Positions 44,987 through 64,000 of a stretch of 64,000 nt of DNA are shown piece by piece. The position numbers were made by a program, and so were the translations under genes. This DNA is from Pseudoclavibacter terrae (GTDB taxonomy: Bacteria; Actinomycetota; Actinomycetes; Actinomycetales; Microbacteriaceae), in the NCBI RefSeq assembly GCF_008831075.1, contig NZ_WBJX01000001.1, forward strand, positions 940,515 to 1,004,514, read 5' to 3'. The notes below the pieces were generated by a model. The model searched no databases, was not told the DNA's origin, and worked only from the letters and a program-made list of their open reading frames with translations. The number at the start of each line of letters is the position of its first letter. Position 1 is the first letter of the stretch.

Positions 44987-45883
44987 GTGACACTTCGACT
45001 GATGGCGGTCCACGCCCATCCCGATGACGAGTCCAGCAAGGGCGCGGCGACCTACGCTGCGTACCGCGCGAGGGGTGCTGAGGTCATGGTGGTCAGCTGC
45101 ACCGGTGGCGAGGCTGGCGACATCCTCAACCCGGGGCTCGAGTCCGTCTTCCACGCGCAGCGTGACCTCGCTGGCCTCCGCCGCGTCGAGATGGCCGCAG
45201 CGCAGGAGTTCCTCGGCGTCGAGCACCGGTGGCTCGGGTACGTCGACTCCGGGATGGCGTCGGAAGATGGCTCGCTGCCCGTGAACTCGTTCGCGAGCAT
45301 CCCACTCGACATCTCCGCGCGACCGCTGCTGCGCCTCGTGCGCGAGTTCCGCCCGCACGTGCTCGTCACGTACGACGAGAATGGCGGCTACCCGCACCCG
45401 GACCACATCCGCACGCACGACGTCTCCATGCGCGTCTGGCGCGAGTCCGGACTCGCGTCGCACCCCGAGCTCGGCCCGCCCTGGCGCATCTCGAAGCTCT
45501 ACTACGACCGTACGATGAACGGGAAGCGGGCGGACAGCCTCCTGCAGCACATCAAGGGGCTCGACCCTGAATCCCCGCTCCTCGAGCGCCTCGAGCAGAT
45601 GCTCGCCTGGATGCGCGACAAGCCGAGCAACGTCACGACCCAGATCCAGATCGACCAGTTCTTCGACGCCCGCGACTCGGCCCTGCGTTCGCACGCGAGC
45701 CAGGTGGCGCCCGACAGCGGCTTCTTCGCGATTCCGCGCGACATCGAGGCGGCGGCCTACCCCTACGACGACTTCGAGCTGGTGGACTCACGCGTTGATG
45801 CGCCGACGCCGGAGACCGACCTGTTCAGCGGTGTCGACGAGCGCAACGACGACAAGCAGCGCGCCCAGGGGGCTTCCGAGTGA
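44987..45883 (+). CDS. mca: Mycothiol S-conjugate amidase
   Basis: Zn amidase that cleaves mycothiol-toxin conjugates into a mercapturic acid and GlcN-inositol. The 298 residues begin LRLMAVHAHPDDESSKGAA (Zn ligands His, Asp, Asp), then SCTGGEAGDILNPGL, FLGVEHRWLGYVDSGM, VTYDENGGYPHPDHIRTHD (second Zn His) and YYDRTMN. The absence of MshB-specific features and the C-terminal PRDIEAAAYPYDDFELV favour Mca. It shows that the organism uses mycothiol. GTG 44987 follows AGGAGACCA. Confidence 0.93.
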   Translation: MTLRLMAVHAHPDDESSKGAATYAAYRARGAEVMVVSCTGGEAGDILNPGLESVFHAQRDLAGLRRVEMAAAQEFLGVEHRWLGYVDSGMASEDGSLPVNSFASIPLDISARPLLRLVREFRPHVLVTYDENGGYPHPDHIRTHDVSMRVWRESGLASHPELGPPWRISKLYYDRTMNGKRADSLLQHIKGLDPESPLLERLEQMLAWMRDKPSNVTTQIQIDQFFDARDSALRSHASQVAPDSGFFAIPRDIEAAAYPYDDFELVDSRVDAPTPETDLFSGVDERNDDKQRAQGASE

Positions 45884-58071: not shown

Positions 58072-58701
58072 TCAGGCGAAGGTGGCCGCCGCGGTGAGTG
58101 TCGCCGCGCGTTCCCGCTCCTGATCGAGTTCGATCCGCTCGATGGCGACGTCACGGCTCGTGGCCAGTGAGGCGAGGTCCGGAGCGCCGAACCGGCGTGC
58201 GGTGTCGATGACGATGGCGGCGCTCGCCTCTGCATCCGACACCGGGTCGTGGTGGACCAGCGTCCGGAATCCTGCGGCTTCGGCAGCGACCGGGAGCCGA
58301 TACGAGTGCAGCTCGTAGCTTCGGCGCGCCAGCCGGAGCGAGCAGAAGTAGCGCAGGGCCGGCAACGCGGTCTTCGTCGCGAGGCTCGTCGCCAGCAGGA
58401 CGCCGATGTCGAACCTCGCGTTGTGCGCGACGAGCACGTCGTCGCCGAGGAAGGCGAGCAGCGCAGGCAGCTGTCGCTCCCAGGGTTGGGCCGCGCGGGT
58501 CATCTCCCGGCTGATGCCGTGCAGCTGGACGTTGAACGGGCGGAACTCATCGTGAGCGCTCGGCGGTCGGATGAGCCAGGTCGCGCGATCGGCGACGCGT
58601 CCGTCGCGGATTCGGACCAGACCGACCGCGCACGCCGAGGCGGGGGAGCCGTTGGCGGTCTCGAAATCGATCGCCGTGAAGTCGATGGTCACGTCGTCCA
58701 T
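58072..58701 (-). CDS. DnaQ-like 3'-5' exonuclease (DEDDh)
   Basis: Protein of 209 residues with all three exonuclease motifs: Exo I FTAIDFETANG, Exo II VLVAHNARFDIGVL and Exo III HHDPVSDAEASA (His and Asp), giving the DEDDh set. It resembles stand-alone epsilon-like exonucleases of actinobacteria that proofread or process RNA/DNA ends. The C-terminal 60 residues are helical. ATG 58701 begins MDDVTIDFTAID. It is probably co-transcribed with rmuC. Confidence 0.9.
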   Translation of the reverse strand: MDDVTIDFTAIDFETANGSPASACAVGLVRIRDGRVADRATWLIRPPSAHDEFRPFNVQLHGISREMTRAAQPWERQLPALLAFLGDDVLVAHNARFDIGVLLATSLATKTALPALRYFCSLRLARRSYELHSYRLPVAAEAAGFRTLVHHDPVSDAEASAAIVIDTARRFGAPDLASLATSRDVAIERIELDQERERAATLTAAATFA

Positions 58702-58859: not shown

Positions 58860-59825
58860 ATGCAGGACAGTTCGACCCTGCGCAGGAAAAGTTGGAGAAT
58901 CTCCATGATCGTCGCGGTCCTCGGGGCTTCAGCGTGTCTGGGCTTGACCCTCTACGTCGCCGTACGCATGGACCGGGCGCTGGTATCGGCGGAAGTCGGA
59001 GCTCCGGTGCGCTGGATGCTGCTGCTCTTCGCGAGCGTGCTCGGGCTCGGCTACTTCTTCCTGATCTTCCACGCTCCGGGAGTTCCCCATACGCCAACGC
59101 AGCTGGAGGTCCTCGGCACGGTCGCGCTCTGCCTGGTCACGGCTCTGTTCGTGGTCTTCATCGAGGCGGTGCACGCCAGGAGGTCACCCGACGCGCAGTC
59201 GAAGCGAGTCCTCGTGGTCGGCGCGCATCCCGATGATCTGGAGCTCGCATGCGGCGGCACCGTCGCGTCGTACGTGGACGGAGGGCACCAGGTGAAGGTC
59301 CTCGTCATGAGCCGTGGTCAGCAGGGCGGGAACCCGTCCGTGCGTCTTCGCGAGGCGCACGCGGGCGCAGCGCTCCTCGGGGTCCACGACGTCACCGTGC
59401 ATGATTTTCCCGACACACAGCTCTCGAACGCCAATGGCGGCATGATCCGCACCATCGAGCGCGCCATCTCGACGTTCGCGCCGACGGTCATCCTCACGCA
59501 CTCAGAGCACGATCACCACCAGGATCACCAGGCTGTGCACCGTGCGGTCCTCCGAGCGGGCCGACAGGCATCCTCCATCCTCTGCTTCGAGTCGCCATCC
59601 GTCACCAGGCACTTCAATCCGGCGATGTTCGTGGACATCGACGCGTTCATCGACGTCAAGGTCAAGGCAGTCCAGACCCACCGCGACCAGGCAGGAAAGC
59701 CCTACATGAGCTCGAACCGGGTGCGCGGCATCGCGGCGTTCCGTGGCGCGCAGGCCAAATGCGACTACGCGGAGGGCTTCGAGCTCGTGCGGTATCTGCA
59801 GAACACAGGAGGACGGATCTCATGA
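58860..59825 (+). CDS. Membrane-anchored PIG-L family deacetylase
   Basis: Protein of 321 residues. Residues 1-105 hold three hydrophobic helices (MIVAVLGASACLGLTLYVAV, WMLLLFASVLGLGYFFLIF, LGTVALCLVTALFVVFIEAV). The PIG-L Zn deacetylase domain follows: VLVVGAHPDDLELACGGTVA (ligands His, Asp, Asp), RLREAHAGAALLGVHDV, and HSEHDHHQDHQAVHRAVL. Such enzymes remove N-acetyl groups from GlcNAc-type sugars. The side of the membrane on which the domain lies is ambiguous. It is the first gene of a four-gene operon and its stop overlaps the next ATG. A TATCAT hexamer ends 9 nt before the ATG. Confidence 0.88.
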   Translation: MQDSSTLRRKSWRISMIVAVLGASACLGLTLYVAVRMDRALVSAEVGAPVRWMLLLFASVLGLGYFFLIFHAPGVPHTPTQLEVLGTVALCLVTALFVVFIEAVHARRSPDAQSKRVLVVGAHPDDLELACGGTVASYVDGGHQVKVLVMSRGQQGGNPSVRLREAHAGAALLGVHDVTVHDFPDTQLSNANGGMIRTIERAISTFAPTVILTHSEHDHHQDHQAVHRAVLRAGRQASSILCFESPSVTRHFNPAMFVDIDAFIDVKVKAVQTHRDQAGKPYMSSNRVRGIAAFRGAQAKCDYAEGFELVRYLQNTGGRIS

Positions 59826-60745
59826 TGAGGACAGTGGTGGTCACGGGGGCCGGGGGGCCAGCAGGGAAGGCGCTCGGAAGGCAGCTGGCCGCTCTGCGTG
59901 CCAAGGGCTGCGAGCTCCTCTCGATCGGCACCGACACCCGCGCCCTTGTGGATGCCAACTTCGCCATGACGGTGCAGGTGCCGAGAGCGGATTCAGCGCA
60001 GTACGCCCCCGCGCTTCGCGAACTCGTCGCCCAGACGCGGGCGGACGTCGTCATTCCGACGGTGTCGGAGGAACTCGTCCGGATCGCCGGGATAGCCCAC
60101 CTGCTGGGGGAAGACGAGCGCGCTCCGGCTGTTGTCGTGTCCACCCCCGCGGCGACCACGTTGTGCGAGGACAAGCTCTTCACCATGTGGGCGCTGGAGG
60201 CCGCTGGCGTCGCCGTCCCGAAGTTCGCCGGTGGCACCGAGCACGGAACAGCCAGGAGTGCGCTCGACGCCTTCGGTGGACCGGTCATCGTGAAGCCACG
60301 CGTCTCCCGCGGCGGGAGGGGGGTCCGGCTCGTGGAGGATCCCCGCGACGACTGGGGAGGGGTGGACGCTCGAAGCCTCATCCAATCCTTCGCACCCGGT
60401 GTCGAGTACGCCCCGCAGGTGTACCGCTCCCCAAGGACCGGTGCGGTCAGCATCGTCGTGCTCGAGAAGACGGTGCTCAGGGAGGGTCGTGTGGGGAATG
60501 CCGTCGAGACGAGACGGCTGCCCGCGCACGAGGCCGCCGATGTCGCCTGGCTCGCGGCATCCGCCGTCACCAAGCTGGGGCTCGTGGGTCCGATCGATCT
60601 GGACATTCGTCGAGATGAGCAGGGAGTACCCGTCGTGCTCGAGGTGAACGCTCGTTTCGGTGCCAACTCCGAGCACGCTCCTGAGCTGCTCGACCTGGTG
60701 CTCGATGACTGGGCTCCCGCCATGGAGGAGCTGGCCACTGCATGA
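59822..60745 (+). CDS. ATP-grasp ligase (carbamoyl-phosphate synthase-like)
   Basis: Protein of 307 residues. An N-terminal Rossmann-like domain (RTVVVTGAGGPAGKALGRQL) precedes an ATP-grasp fold: TTLCEDKLFTMWALEAAGVA, the ATP-binding VIVKPRVSRGGRGVRLVEDP, LIQSFAPGVEYAPQVY and the metal-binding IDLDIRRDEQGVPVVLEVNA followed by RFGANS. ATP-grasp enzymes join a carboxylate to an amine or thiol via an acyl phosphate. The substrate is unknown; the setting suggests acylation of a deacetylated amino sugar or of a precursor. It is coupled at both ends by 4-nt overlaps. Confidence 0.85.
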   Translation: MMRTVVVTGAGGPAGKALGRQLAALRAKGCELLSIGTDTRALVDANFAMTVQVPRADSAQYAPALRELVAQTRADVVIPTVSEELVRIAGIAHLLGEDERAPAVVVSTPAATTLCEDKLFTMWALEAAGVAVPKFAGGTEHGTARSALDAFGGPVIVKPRVSRGGRGVRLVEDPRDDWGGVDARSLIQSFAPGVEYAPQVYRSPRTGAVSIVVLEKTVLREGRVGNAVETRRLPAHEAADVAWLAASAVTKLGLVGPIDLDIRRDEQGVPVVLEVNARFGANSEHAPELLDLVLDDWAPAMEELATA

Positions 60746-62040
60746 CTCCGTGGATCCACTGGCCGCTCCTGGTGCTGGGGACGATCATCCTCGTGCTCGG
60801 TGCGCTCAAGCTGATCTATCTGCCACTCGCGGCCGGGTTCGAGCTCGCAGGGTGGCACAGGCGTCGCCGACGTCGGCGACGCCATGTTGCGACGACGATC
60901 TTCGGCGATCGCGCCCCGTTCGTCAGCGTCGTCGTTCCCGCCTTCAACGAGGCGAACGTGCTCGAGAACTGCGTCAGGTCGCTGATGCGCTCGAGGTATC
61001 CGGCGTTCGAGGTCATCCTGGTCGATGACGGATCAACCGACTCGACGTTCTCGCGCATGCAGGAGCTGGCCGCCGAGCATCCGGGCGTCACGGCGCTGAC
61101 GAAGGCGAACGGCGGCAAGGGCTCAGCGCTGAACGTCGGCATCAGGGCATCCCGGGGTGAGGTGCTGCTGCTGAGCGACGCCGATGGTGTCTTCGGTCAG
61201 GACGCGCTCGCCACCATGGTCGACGCGTTCACCGACACGTCGGTTGGTGCGGTGTGCGGCGATGATCGGCCGGTGAATCTCGACCGCGTGCAGACCCGGT
61301 TCCTTGCCGTCATCAGCCACGTCGGCACGGGTCTCGTGCGGCGTGCCATGCACGTGCTGCGCTGCCTCCCGATCGTCTCAGGGAACATCGGTGCCTTCCG
61401 TCGCGACGTGCTCGAACGCAGCGGCCTCCTTGCCGAGGACACGCTCGGCGAGGATCTCGAGCTGACCTGGCGTATCTATCGAGCCGGGTATCGGGTGGCG
61501 TTCGCACCGACGGCTGTCGTCTATGCGGAGAGCCCTTCGACGCTCAAGGGGCTGTGGCGCCAACGGGTGAGGTGGGGGCGTGGTCTGCTGCAGACCTGCC
61601 GCAGGCACGCCGACATGATCGGGAACCCTCGCTACAGGGCCTTCGGCCTGTCACTGCTCTATCTCGTGGGCACGTCGATCGTCGTCCCGATCGCGCAGCT
61701 CATGATCGTGCCCTTGCTCATCATCGCGCTGATCCTCGGTGACAGCTCTGCCGTCGCGGCTGATGTGTGGCAGTTCGTGCTCTGGCTGGGGCTGCCGGTC
61801 GCCGTCCTCTTCCTGCTCGTCGCCCTTGCGCTCAACCGCGCATGGGGAGATCTGCGCTTCGCGTGGACGCTCCTCTTCTGGCCTGCCTACTCGGCGCTCA
61901 TGAGCCTCGTGTTCGTGCGGGCGCTTTCCCTTGAACTCCGAAAGGCCCCCCAACGATGGAACAAGCTCGAACGAACCGGCGTCGTCTCCCGCACGGGCAC
62001 GGAACTCGAGCTCGCCGGCTTGTCGCTCTCGGCCTCGTGA
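60742..62040 (+). CDS. Processive-type GT2 glycosyltransferase (PgaC/IcaA-like)
   Basis: Protein of 432 residues. An N-terminal helix (PLLVLGTIILVLGALKLIYL) and a poly-Arg stretch precede the GT-A domain: SVVVPAFNEANVLENCVRSL, VILVDDGSTDSTFSRM, GEVLLLSDADGVF, EDTLGEDLELTWRIYRAG and LWRQRVRWGRGLLQT. The D, D, D, (R)xxRW pattern is that of processive synthases such as PgaC/IcaA and hyaluronan synthase. Three further helices near the C-terminus could form a translocation channel. It probably polymerises a HexNAc-type glycan. The 3' end overlaps the next gene by 85 nt. Confidence 0.88.
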   Translation: MTPWIHWPLLVLGTIILVLGALKLIYLPLAAGFELAGWHRRRRRRRRHVATTIFGDRAPFVSVVVPAFNEANVLENCVRSLMRSRYPAFEVILVDDGSTDSTFSRMQELAAEHPGVTALTKANGGKGSALNVGIRASRGEVLLLSDADGVFGQDALATMVDAFTDTSVGAVCGDDRPVNLDRVQTRFLAVISHVGTGLVRRAMHVLRCLPIVSGNIGAFRRDVLERSGLLAEDTLGEDLELTWRIYRAGYRVAFAPTAVVYAESPSTLKGLWRQRVRWGRGLLQTCRRHADMIGNPRYRAFGLSLLYLVGTSIVVPIAQLMIVPLLIIALILGDSSAVAADVWQFVLWLGLPVAVLFLLVALALNRAWGDLRFAWTLLFWPAYSALMSLVFVRALSLELRKAPQRWNKLERTGVVSRTGTELELAGLSLSAS

Positions 62041-63122
62041 GCACGGTCATGTTCGTGGGCCTGAACGCCTGCGCTGAAGAAACGCAGCTCGTCTATCCGG
62101 AGGTACGGGCGGTGAGCCTCGGCTTCGAGGACGTCGCAGATGCCGACACGGATTGGGCCGCGGTCCGAGCCGACCTCGAGTCCGTGCATGCGAATGCCGT
62201 GCATCTCGCAGTGGGGCGTGTCGAATGGTCGGCCTTCCCCTGGGCGAAGCACGCCGATCGCACTGCCTCGATCGTCGAGGAGACCGGCACCGACTACGTG
62301 CAGCGCGCGATCGACGAAGTTGGCACCCAGCCGGATGGGACACCTCGGCGGATCGTGCTGACGATCGACGCGCTGGTCCCTGAGCTCATCGCCGCAGATC
62401 CCGAACTCGCCGGGGTGGACGCGTCTGGCCGCCGGTCGGAGTCGTTCGCATCGGCGTCGGCGCTCGCGGAGGGGACCGTGGGGGACAGGCTCGTGGAGAT
62501 GGTCGAGTATGTGGCGAGGACGTACGACGCCGACGAGGTCACGCTCACGGAGCTCATGTTCGACGGGTCCACGTTCGGTGACGATGACCTCGAGCTCTAC
62601 TCGGGAATGTTCGGGGCGGTCGACTGGCCGCGAGACGGCGACGGCGAGATCGACAGTGCCCATCCGTCGATCGGCGCCTGGCGCTCACAGGTGATCGCGC
62701 AGCTCGCGTCCCGTGCCCGCGAGGCGGCGAATGCGGCCGGCAGCGAGCTGGCGTTGGACGTGCGGACATCCTGGGTCGATCCGGTCTCTGGACGCGCGGA
62801 GAGCGGCCACGACCTGACCGTGGTGGCGGGCTCGGTCGATCGGATCATCGTCTGGAACTACTTCGGCATGAGCGGTGCGTCCGGCGGCGACTCCACCGAC
62901 CTCACGCGCGCGTACCGGGACGCGGGTATCGATCCCGCGATGGTGACGATGTCGGTGGGGATGTGGACCGATCGCGGTGCGGAGCTGGTCGACCCGGCTG
63001 ACTTCGGAGATGGCGTGCGTGCATCCGCGAGCCACGGGGTGACGAGTGTCGCCGTCACGCCACGTTCGCTCATGACGCGCGCGCACTGGGACGCGCTCGC
63101 CTCGGTCTGGAGTGCCGAATGA
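61956..63122 (+). CDS. Lipoprotein with predicted TIM-barrel (glycoside hydrolase-like) domain
   Basis: Protein of 388 residues. The signal peptide has an Arg-rich n-region (RTNRRRLPHGHGTRARR), h-region LVALGLVSTVMFVGL and lipobox LNAC. The mature part shows eight regularly spaced beta strands (AVSLGF, AVHLAV, RIVLTIDA, EVTLTELMF, ELALDVRTSW, RIIVWNYFGM, MVTMSVGMW, SVAVTPRS) alternating with helices, as in a TIM barrel. EVTLTELMFD and DVRTSWVDP offer possible acidic catalytic residues. It resembles the glycoside-hydrolase-like half of PgaB. ATG 61956 is required for a complete signal peptide; GTG 62037 would truncate it. Confidence 0.78.
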   Translation: MEQARTNRRRLPHGHGTRARRLVALGLVSTVMFVGLNACAEETQLVYPEVRAVSLGFEDVADADTDWAAVRADLESVHANAVHLAVGRVEWSAFPWAKHADRTASIVEETGTDYVQRAIDEVGTQPDGTPRRIVLTIDALVPELIAADPELAGVDASGRRSESFASASALAEGTVGDRLVEMVEYVARTYDADEVTLTELMFDGSTFGDDDLELYSGMFGAVDWPRDGDGEIDSAHPSIGAWRSQVIAQLASRAREAANAAGSELALDVRTSWVDPVSGRAESGHDLTVVAGSVDRIIVWNYFGMSGASGGDSTDLTRAYRDAGIDPAMVTMSVGMWTDRGAELVDPADFGDGVRASASHGVTSVAVTPRSLMTRAHWDALASVWSAE

Positions 63123-63148: not shown

Positions 63149-64000
63149 GTGGCTCTTACTCTTGGCATCGTCGGCCTGCCCAACGTCGGCAAATCGACCC
63201 TTTTCAACGCACTCACGAAGAACCAGGTTCTCGCGGCGAACTACCCGTTCGCGACGATCGAGCCGAACGTGGGGGTCGTCGAGCTGCCCGACGCTCGCCT
63301 GAAGGTGCTCGCGGAGATCTTCGGCTCGGAGCGCATCCTCCCGGCCGCGGTGTCGTTCGTCGACATCGCAGGCATCGTGCGCGGTGCGAGCGAGGGTGAG
63401 GGGCTCGGCAACCAGTTCCTCGCGAACATCCGTGAAGCGGATGCGATCGTGCAGGTCGTGCGCGGCTTCGAAGACGGCGACGTGGTGCACGTCGACGGCA
63501 AGGTCGAGCCGGCCAGCGACATGGAGACGATCAACACCGAGCTGATCCTCGCCGATCTGCAGACCATCGAGAAGGCGCTCCCGCGGTTCGAGAAGGAAGT
63601 CAAGCAGAAGCGTCTTGACTCGTCCGTGCTCGAGGCGGCGAACGAGGCCAAGGCGGCGCTCGACGAGGGAACGCTGCTCTCGGCGACGAAGATCGATCTC
63701 GAGCCCATCAAGGAGCTCGGCTTGCTGACGGCCAAGCCCATGATCTTCGTCTTCAACATCGACGAGGCCGCGCTGAGCAGCGAGGAGAAGCTGGCCGAGC
63801 TGGCCGCGCTCGTCGCACCCGCGAAGGCGATCTTCCTCGACGCGCAGACCGAGTCGGAGCTCATCGACCTGGACCCGGAGGAGGCGGCAGAGCTGCTCGC
63901 GTCGCTCGGTCAGGACGAGTCGGGCCTCAGCCAGCTCGCGCGCATCGGCTTCGACACGCTCGGCCTGCAGACGTACCTCACCGCCGGCCCCAAGGAGTCG
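63149..64000 (+). CDS. ychF: YchF/OLA1 family ribosome-binding ATPase (3' end outside window)
   Basis: The first 284 residues are present; the full protein is usually about 360. The G domain begins [20 protein letters not shown] (G1), with [39 protein letters not shown] (G3) and the altered G4 region FVFNIDEA, in which NxxE-type sequence replaces NKxD and favours ATP. The coiled-coil insertion lies between [20 protein letters not shown] and LLTAKPMI. The C-terminal TGS domain is beyond the edge. YchF binds ribosomes and responds to oxidative stress. Confidence 0.96.

Follow-up and report, generated by a model that had tools for sequence, protein, structure and literature searches.

The pathway logic in which a sugar is transferred, de-N-acetylated and modified at its amine has precedents among amino-sugar glycan pathways. 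In the synthesis of mycothiol (MshA-B-C) and bacillithiol (BshA-B-C), glycosyl transfer is followed by deacetylation of N-acetylglucosamine (GlcNAc) by a PIG-L family enzyme and then by the formation of an amide on the amine. According to the accessible part of PMC5080398, NodC, NodB and NodA similarly carry out oligomer synthesis by a family 2 glycosyltransferase (GT2), N-deacetylation and N-acylation of the freed amine in the production of Nod factor. In the poly-N-acetylglucosamine (PNAG) systems, pgaABCD and icaADBC, deacetylation is performed by PgaB or IcaB, and the glycoside hydrolase (GH) domain is reported, in the available portion of PMC7112194, only from Gram-negative pga operons. 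The Campylobacter jejuni capsule enzyme Cj1438 is described as a polymerising GT2 fused to a TupA-like ATP-grasp amidoligase (PMC11800379, partial text). Here we describe a cassette of four same-strand open reading frames (58860-63122, +) in a 64,000-nucleotide stretch (hereafter the window) of the 3.9-Mb genome of Pseudoclavibacter terrae, which encodes, in this order, a PIG-L deacetylase, an ATP-grasp enzyme, a GT2 and a predicted barrel lipoprotein, a four-family combination for which no precedent was found in the searched literature.

The cassette shares with the mycothiol and bacillithiol pathways the proposed reactions of glycosyl transfer and of PIG-L deacetylation with subsequent amide formation, but it has no thiol ligase, its GT2 is a membrane protein whereas their glycosyltransferases are soluble, and its PIG-L protein scores under the BshB1 and MshB cut-offs. 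It resembles the PNAG systems in combining a GT2 for which PgaC/IcaA is the best model, a deacetylase and a predicted extracytoplasmic barrel with a fold like that of the PgaB C-terminal domain. However, its deacetylase belongs to the PIG-L family and is predicted to be cytoplasmic, whereas that of the PNAG systems is a CE4 enzyme acting outside; moreover, an ATP-grasp enzyme is added, the barrel has no detected kinship to PgaB, and the GT2 falls short of the PgaC cut-off. The parallel with Nod factor lies in the shared logic of glycosyl polymerisation, deacetylation and acylation of the amine (PMC5080398, in part), but PIG-L stands in the place of the CE4 enzyme NodB and ATP-grasp in that of the acyltransferase NodA; the GT2 reaches 79.6 bits on the NodC model (against 550), and neither CE4 nor NodA is among the families listed for the other three proteins. 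With Cj1438 it shares the coupling of a GT2 to an amide-forming ATP-grasp enzyme, although Cj1438, as far as PMC11800379 is accessible, amidates a uronic acid carboxylate, contains no PIG-L or barrel domain and has an ATP-grasp domain of a different Pfam family.

A candidate pathway for an N-modified amino-sugar glycan

We propose, at what we judge to be even chances, that the four genes form a gain-or-loss cassette through which actinobacteria make a surface glycan of N-modified amino sugars. The PIG-L enzyme would strip the N-acetyl group from a GlcNAc-type residue, either a nucleotide sugar or a membrane-bound acceptor, on the cytoplasmic side; the ATP-grasp enzyme would spend ATP to couple a carboxylate, perhaps that of an amino acid, onto the freed amine, action on this amine being our best guess; the PgaC-like GT2 would polymerise the product and probably also translocate it; and the membrane-tethered GH-like barrel may bind, guide or trim the chain outside the cell, as the PgaB C-terminal domain does for PNAG. 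In a second form of the cassette (type II, below), a histidine kinase would directly control deacetylation through a response regulator in which a receiver (REC) domain is fused to PIG-L. The gene order parallels the proposed reaction path, which is only suggestive.

The proposal draws support from the completeness of the set, 27 of the 29 distinct barrel loci holding all four functions, with close junctions at 19 of them; from the cytoplasmic placement of PIG-L by charge, its fusion to REC and the co-occurrence of this fusion with the barrel; from the invariant GT2 residues, the PgaC/IcaA best model and the match of the ATP-grasp enzyme to PF14397; from the fold neighbours of the barrel (GH14, GH20, GH42 and GH153) and the conservation of its residue E199; and from the precedent of Cj1438, in which a GT2 and an ATP-grasp domain that forms amides are joined in one protein (PMC11800379, partial text). 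Linkage, co-occurrence, predicted folds, conserved catalytic residues and predicted sidedness were computed, whereas the identity of the sugar and of the group ligated to it, the sequence of the reactions, and their export, trimming and control aspects are inferred. More tentatively, it is possible that the product represents a new class of glycan, in which GlcNAc would be de-N-acetylated inside the cell by PIG-L, re-acylated by ATP-grasp (for example, by an aminoacyl group), built into a polymer by a PgaC-like synthase and processed by a glycoside hydrolase of an as yet unrecognised family, one form being switched by a two-component system with the deacetylase as its output domain.

If correct, this would add an unnamed actinobacterial glycan pathway joining four enzyme families, a candidate new glycoside hydrolase family and a response regulator with a sugar-modifying enzyme as its output. 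With four genes, one predicted reaction for each, and representatives in Arthrobacter species, the cassette is directly testable. Our literature search, which ran without most subscription journals and all preprints, returned no paper combining PIG-L with ATP-grasp. The sole match for PIG-L response regulators with a histidine kinase seems unrelated, nothing relevant appeared on PIG-L/GT2 exopolysaccharide operons or, among the matches listed, on Pseudoclavibacter exopolysaccharide, and the passages in PMC2824669 that deal with ATP-grasp enzymes and surface polymers concern eukaryotes.

Table 1. The four cassette genes and their neighbours in the window
Feature	Coordinates	Strand	Basis
Membrane-anchored PIG-L family N-deacetylase (predicted)	58905..59825	+	PF02585 E 9.8e-29; conserved AHPDD..HxDH; charge-based topology
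ATP-grasp enzyme without transmembrane segments, amide-bond forming by family	59822..60745	+	PF02655, PF14397, AlphaFold2, Foldseek
PgaC/IcaA-like membrane GT2 glycosyltransferase	60742..62040	+	PF13641 E 8.8e-36; TIGR03937; D, D, ED, QRVRW
Predicted lipoprotein with glycoside-hydrolase-like TIM barrel	61956 (or 62037)..63122	+	AlphaFold2, Foldseek, weak GHL10 in relatives
Left flank: exonuclease-like gene transcribed away from the cassette, outside the system	58072..58701	-	Named by eye, without family scan
Right flank: presumably YchF-type GTPase, outside the system	63149..64000	+	Extends past window end

Conservation and organization of the cassette

The 29 distinct barrel loci, spread over Microbacteriaceae, Micrococcaceae and two further families, fall into three groups. 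At 19 loci (type I), PIG-L, ATP-grasp, GT2 and barrel genes lie together on one strand in the order seen in the window, one of these loci (L024) starting at a contig end with a truncated PIG-L gene. At eight loci (type II), the genes for ATP-grasp, GT2 and barrel face a pair of genes encoding a histidine kinase and a response regulator of the REC-PIG-L type, identified by Pfam for two of these loci. The remaining two are lone barrels with no other cassette member in the surrounding stretch. The recurrence of the same order at 19 distinct loci exceeds chance, and the linkage anticipated by the first-pass annotation is thus present in relatives. One family holds both forms, type I in two genomes and type II in one, so that types I and II look like variants of one system.

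These loci come from whole genomes, in which the barrel was detected in 5 of 60 relatives, 6 of 299 members of the family, 4 of 394 of the class, 7 of 149 of a second family, 1 of 396 of the phylum and 6 of 248 of the order (the window's own genome being counted in all but the second family and being the phylum's sole match), from one plasmid record, and from 84,980 named species, where a search with one sequence pattern yielded a non-exhaustive 14 loci; this pattern misses type II, since FDW takes the place of FPW in the seven type II barrels that were aligned. The plasmid search gave one Arthrobacter megaplasmid, whose stretch carries no annotated features. Duplicates were recognized by shared sequence (L006 and L010 with L020; L007 and L015 with L021; L008 and L014 with L012; L009 and L013 with L031; L016 and L032 with L018; L017 with L019; L095 and L103 with L022; L096 with L104; L097 with L102; L098 with L101; L099 with L100; L035-L041 with L042-L048), with L011 equated with L021 by place only; the 28 non-window loci are otherwise free of duplicates.

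The four genes of the window are genuine, coupled and ordered as initially described. Both 4-nt overlaps reported at first are upheld, as ATGA at 59822-59825 (PIG-L/ATP-grasp) and at 60742-60745 (ATP-grasp/GT2), whereas the reported 85-nt overlap between the GT2 and lipoprotein genes holds only with ATG 61956 and gives way to a 4-nt GTGA overlap if GTG 62037 is used. The lipoprotein signal is better from ATG 61956, with an arginine-rich n-region followed by LNAC. Over 61956-62040 the first codons of the barrel gene overlap the invariant WNK codons of the GT2 gene, and the MEQ-type start is their reading in another frame; hence, the conservation of MEQ at the barrel start does not prove the start codon. 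At 56 of 57 type I junctions an in-frame start lies within 30 nt of the preceding stop, although the script favours starts near a 4-nt overlap, so that these figures show coupling to be possible rather than the use of those starts. The nearest start lies at -4 (14 loci) or -1 (5) after PIG-L; at -4 (11), -14 (6), 0 (one) or +81 (one) after ATP-grasp; and at -4 (16) or, once each, at +2, -11 and +26 after GT2.

In the second family, REC-PIG-L (E <= 1e-60) is encoded in all seven barrel genomes as opposed to one of the 142 others (Fisher's exact p 2.9e-11, a value that overstates the strength of the association since the genomes are related); judging from the listed rows, both searches covered the same 149 genomes. 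The one barrel-free genome carries its REC-PIG-L gene (L094 6862-7797, -) with a kinase-like gene next to flagellin, FlgK/FlgL-like and CsrA-like genes, named by eye, and the 19-kb stretch has no ATP-grasp, GT2 or barrel match; this REC-PIG-L is perhaps linked to flagellin glycosylation.

The nearest named relative at the cassette locus is Pseudoclavibacter sp. RFBB5, with a barrel protein 85% identical to that of the window. In four of six barrel-less congeners the genes flanking the cassette are directly adjacent, which points to gain or loss of the cassette as a whole; in the remaining two, no left-flank gene was found within 1.5 kb. Other genomes of the genus hold the cassette at other sites (gene names by eye).

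A predicted cytoplasmic PIG-L deacetylase

The first protein belongs to the PIG-L family (PF02585, 100.9 bits against a cut-off of 28.2), for which AHPDD..HxDH is the family motif. D125, D126, E128, H220, D222 and H223 are present in 27 of 27 aligned rows and H123 in 26, the remaining row being truncated. With three predicted transmembrane segments ahead of the catalytic domain, it is the membrane PIG-L deacetylase that had been recognized from the outset. Translation probably begins at ATG 58905, not at the listed but possible ATG 58860, since GGAG lies just upstream, similarity to an 87% identical relative starts at about this point (the alignment begins at residue 14 and the earlier codons differ), and the N-terminus before the first segment is then uncharged, as in most relatives. 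A second PIG-L domain is encoded elsewhere in the window (45002-45433, +; E 2.6e-26), perhaps in a thiol-pathway deacetylase.

Topology was read from hydropathy peaks (threshold 1.6, then 1.2) and from the number of lysine or arginine residues (K/R) per loop in 15 membrane PIG-L rows. At 1.6, seven rows have three segments, seven have two (six Arthrobacter rows and L012), and the truncated L024 has none; at 1.2, a weak third segment appears in the six Arthrobacter rows (peak hydropathy 1.31-1.58). In 13 rows, 2-9 K/R after the first segment, none or one after the second and 3-5 after the third place the catalytic domain inside, as do the 12 K/R ahead of the first of two segments in L012. The catalytic domain is thus predicted to be cytoplasmic in 14 of 15 rows, that is, in all readable ones, and the fusion to REC in type II is consistent with an enzyme located in the cytoplasm; the acetyl group would then be removed before export.

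This prediction is the main correction to the initial suggestion that PIG-L replaces the CE4 enzyme, as a PNAG model calls for deacetylation outside the cell. Under such a split PNAG system, PIG-L would take the part of PgaB or IcaB and deacetylate exported or nascent PNAG, in keeping with the PgaC-like GT2, the PgaB-like barrel fold and the fact that, if the weak third segment of the six Arthrobacter rows does not cross the membrane, their catalytic domain would lie outside. However, PIG-L is predicted to be cytoplasmic and is fused to a receiver domain at eight loci, and, in the available text of PMC7112194, Pga and Ica systems deacetylate through PgaB or IcaB, with the GH domain exclusive to Gram-negative pga operons. 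Given these points, we regard a split PNAG system as very improbable, and the claim of CE4 replacement outside the cell is not supported.

The ATP-grasp enzyme and its possible acceptor

The second protein matches PF02655 (ATP-grasp_3; E 4.8e-13, 49.9 bits against a cut-off of 23.2) and, barely above the cut-off, the 'sugar-transfer associated ATP-grasp' family PF14397 (32.5 against 31.4 bits). Its AlphaFold2 model (predicted local distance difference test, pLDDT, 91.7) has as Foldseek neighbours the CPS-like protein 2pn1, PurK, the L-amino acid ligase 3vot, Ddl, PylC and biotin carboxylases, in agreement with the family assigned at first. K158, E274 and N276, which we take to be nucleotide and metal residues, are invariant in 27 of 27 rows. 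At four Arthrobacter loci, another ATP-grasp gene follows some 2.5 kb further downstream (L023:12464-13420, L027:12570-13538, L028:12429-13382 and L029:12435-13391), in which the conserved LEVNARFG reads LGVCATLG or LGVCATMG; it is likely an inactive paralogue.

Conceivably, the enzyme bypasses the freed amine altogether and amidates a sugar carboxylate, as Cj1438C does on glucuronic acid, or makes another precursor, the free amines left by PIG-L then providing the final charge. The characterised GT2-coupled ATP-grasp enzyme does amidate the carboxylate of glucuronic acid (PMC11800379, partial text), but within the cassette no gene for making a uronate was seen, and the ten Pfam families listed for the protein (E <= 1) include no TupA-like ATP-grasp. 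We consider this reading rather improbable and favour acylation of the amine.

A PgaC-like glycosyltransferase

The D, D, D, RxxRW motifs first noted in the GT2 are borne out in kind and refined to D, D, ED and Q-R-V-R-W, with all checked residues invariant in 27 of 27 rows; hydropathy indicates three strong transmembrane segments. The combination of D, D, ED and Q(Q/R)xRW with membrane segments is a hallmark of processive GT2 synthases, and judged by its sequence the protein fits this pattern. Its best curated model is PgaC_IcaA (TIGR03937, 189.9 bits), followed by TIGR03111 (105.3), MftF (99.8), NodC (79.6), HpnI (51.3) and the ArnC type (33.2), MftF and HpnI being below cut-off. In direct comparison it scores 139 bits with Escherichia coli PgaC, 65.5 with BcsA and 48.5 with ArnC. 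Across 30 genomes the PgaC model gives 182-192 bits for the four system GT2s and 136.7 for the best other GT2, none above the cut-off.

The same scores leave room for a glycolipid or small-molecule pathway of the mycothiol, bacillithiol or HpnI type, in which GlcNAc, once attached by the GT2 to a lipid or a small acceptor, is deacetylated by PIG-L and has its amine capped by ATP-grasp, with the barrel acting on the exported product or elsewhere. The sub-cut-off matches of the GT2 to MftF and HpnI are compatible with this possibility, a membrane-tethered cytoplasmic PIG-L would suit a membrane-bound acceptor, and the best curated NCBIfam model for PIG-L is BshB1, a GlcNAc-malate deacetylase, even if all equivalog scores are below their cut-offs (BshB1 89.7/182.5, BshB2 51.2/195.25, MshB 24.8/224.35 and Mca 35.2/277.15 bits). 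Nevertheless, the invariant QRVRW is typical of processive synthases, the PgaC score is far higher than those of MftF and HpnI, a soluble-looking REC-PIG-L form exists, and the predicted glycosidase fold of the barrel fits a chain more than a small product. The barrel at every cassette is no evidence here because the loci were found via the barrel. On balance, a small-molecule product appears unlikely, and we retain polymerisation as the proposed role of the GT2.

A predicted glycoside-hydrolase-like barrel

The lipoprotein on its own has no Pfam (E <= 1), NCBIfam or PDB sequence match. Its AlphaFold2 model (17-sequence alignment) has a mean pLDDT of 86.2, with residues 1-42 below 50, and DSSP finds ten strands of at least three residues, eight of which are assigned to the barrel, in line with the eight-strand pattern originally perceived. 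The best Foldseek matches in PDB are GH14 beta-amylase, GH20 hexosaminidases, the PgaB GH153 domain, GH156 and GH42, and the protein is predicted to be a glycoside-hydrolase-like TIM barrel. These neighbours are largely the set given for the PgaB GH domain, namely GH42, GH35, GH14, GH18 and GH20 (accessible part of PMC5933820), and the template-modelling score with this domain (4p7q) is 0.63 on the query and 0.68 on the target. Among 24 relatives, Pfam detects GHL10 weakly in five (best E 0.00098) and GHL6 and DUF4015 in one each, besides unrelated single matches. Of the families suggested for comparison at the outset, the PgaB GH domain is among the top fold matches, and GHL10 appears weakly in profile scores. 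A search of PDB sequences with the family profile returned 16 matches, of which 14 are designed armadillo-repeat proteins and two are acetyltransferase chains (best E 0.0012); none is a glycosidase.

E199 lies directly after strand 4 and is a glutamate in 27 of 27 cassette barrels (26 rows of the conservation table and L021, gapped there, from a separate alignment), while both lone homologues have serine; its position and conservation make it a candidate catalytic acid. In the lone barrels, from Gulosibacter-group genomes (L033:9001-10017 and L019:10387-11403), the conserved Y302 is likewise serine. A cysteine at the lipobox position is found in 13 aligned rows and L021, the other type I rows, apart from L018 (below), being truncated or unaligned there; all eight type II barrels have a transmembrane anchor without this cysteine.

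Weighing the proposal

Several observations weigh against the proposed pathway. Because the loci were gathered via the barrel, the counts show the partners of the barrel, not sets of PIG-L, ATP-grasp and GT2 genes without it. The ATP-grasp fold also suits carboxylases and peptide ligases, and the weak third segment of the six Arthrobacter rows, if it does not cross, would put their PIG-L domain outside. The GT2 is far under the PgaC/IcaA cut-off (189.9 against 422.3 bits). In a tree that omitted five of 22 system GT2s as near-duplicates, L050, L100-L104, seven own-genome GT2 loci that gave no BLAST hit, a repeat and OpgH, the 17 system GT2s lie on one side of a weakly supported branch (Shimodaira-Hasegawa approximate likelihood-ratio test, 74), and E. 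coli PgaC groups with six other GT2s apart from them; given its many long branches, the tree was not used for placement. The barrel fold by itself is unspecific, given 339 matching chains in the PDB at E <= 0.001, and no sequence kinship to PgaB was detected (profile comparison by hhalign with the C-terminal part of E. coli PgaB, probability 0.1). The lipobox cysteine is absent from all eight type II barrels and from the type I barrel of L018. Neither a flippase nor a gene for glycan attachment was seen within the cassette, and the substrates of the four proteins and the product are inferred.

Taken together, linkage of the genes extends to relatives, a TIM barrel is predicted for the lipoprotein, and the scores place the GT2 with PgaC/IcaA ahead of lipid-linked monosaccharide transferases, although the tree does not join it to PgaC. 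None of the three outcomes named in the first-pass annotation as contradicting its PNAG-like reading was therefore obtained, and that reading is partly supported, with extracellular deacetylation by PIG-L set aside as the leading view.

Sequence context of the cassette

Promoter and terminator scans were uninformative, and no compositional anomaly was found, the G+C content being 0.65-0.68 across the cassette and 0.65-0.70 in the left flank. At L031/L013 (6310-12787), from a metagenome-assembled genome of the Pseudoclavibacter group, a GNAT-like gene and open reading frames resembling non-ribosomal peptide synthetases, as named by eye, come after the cassette.

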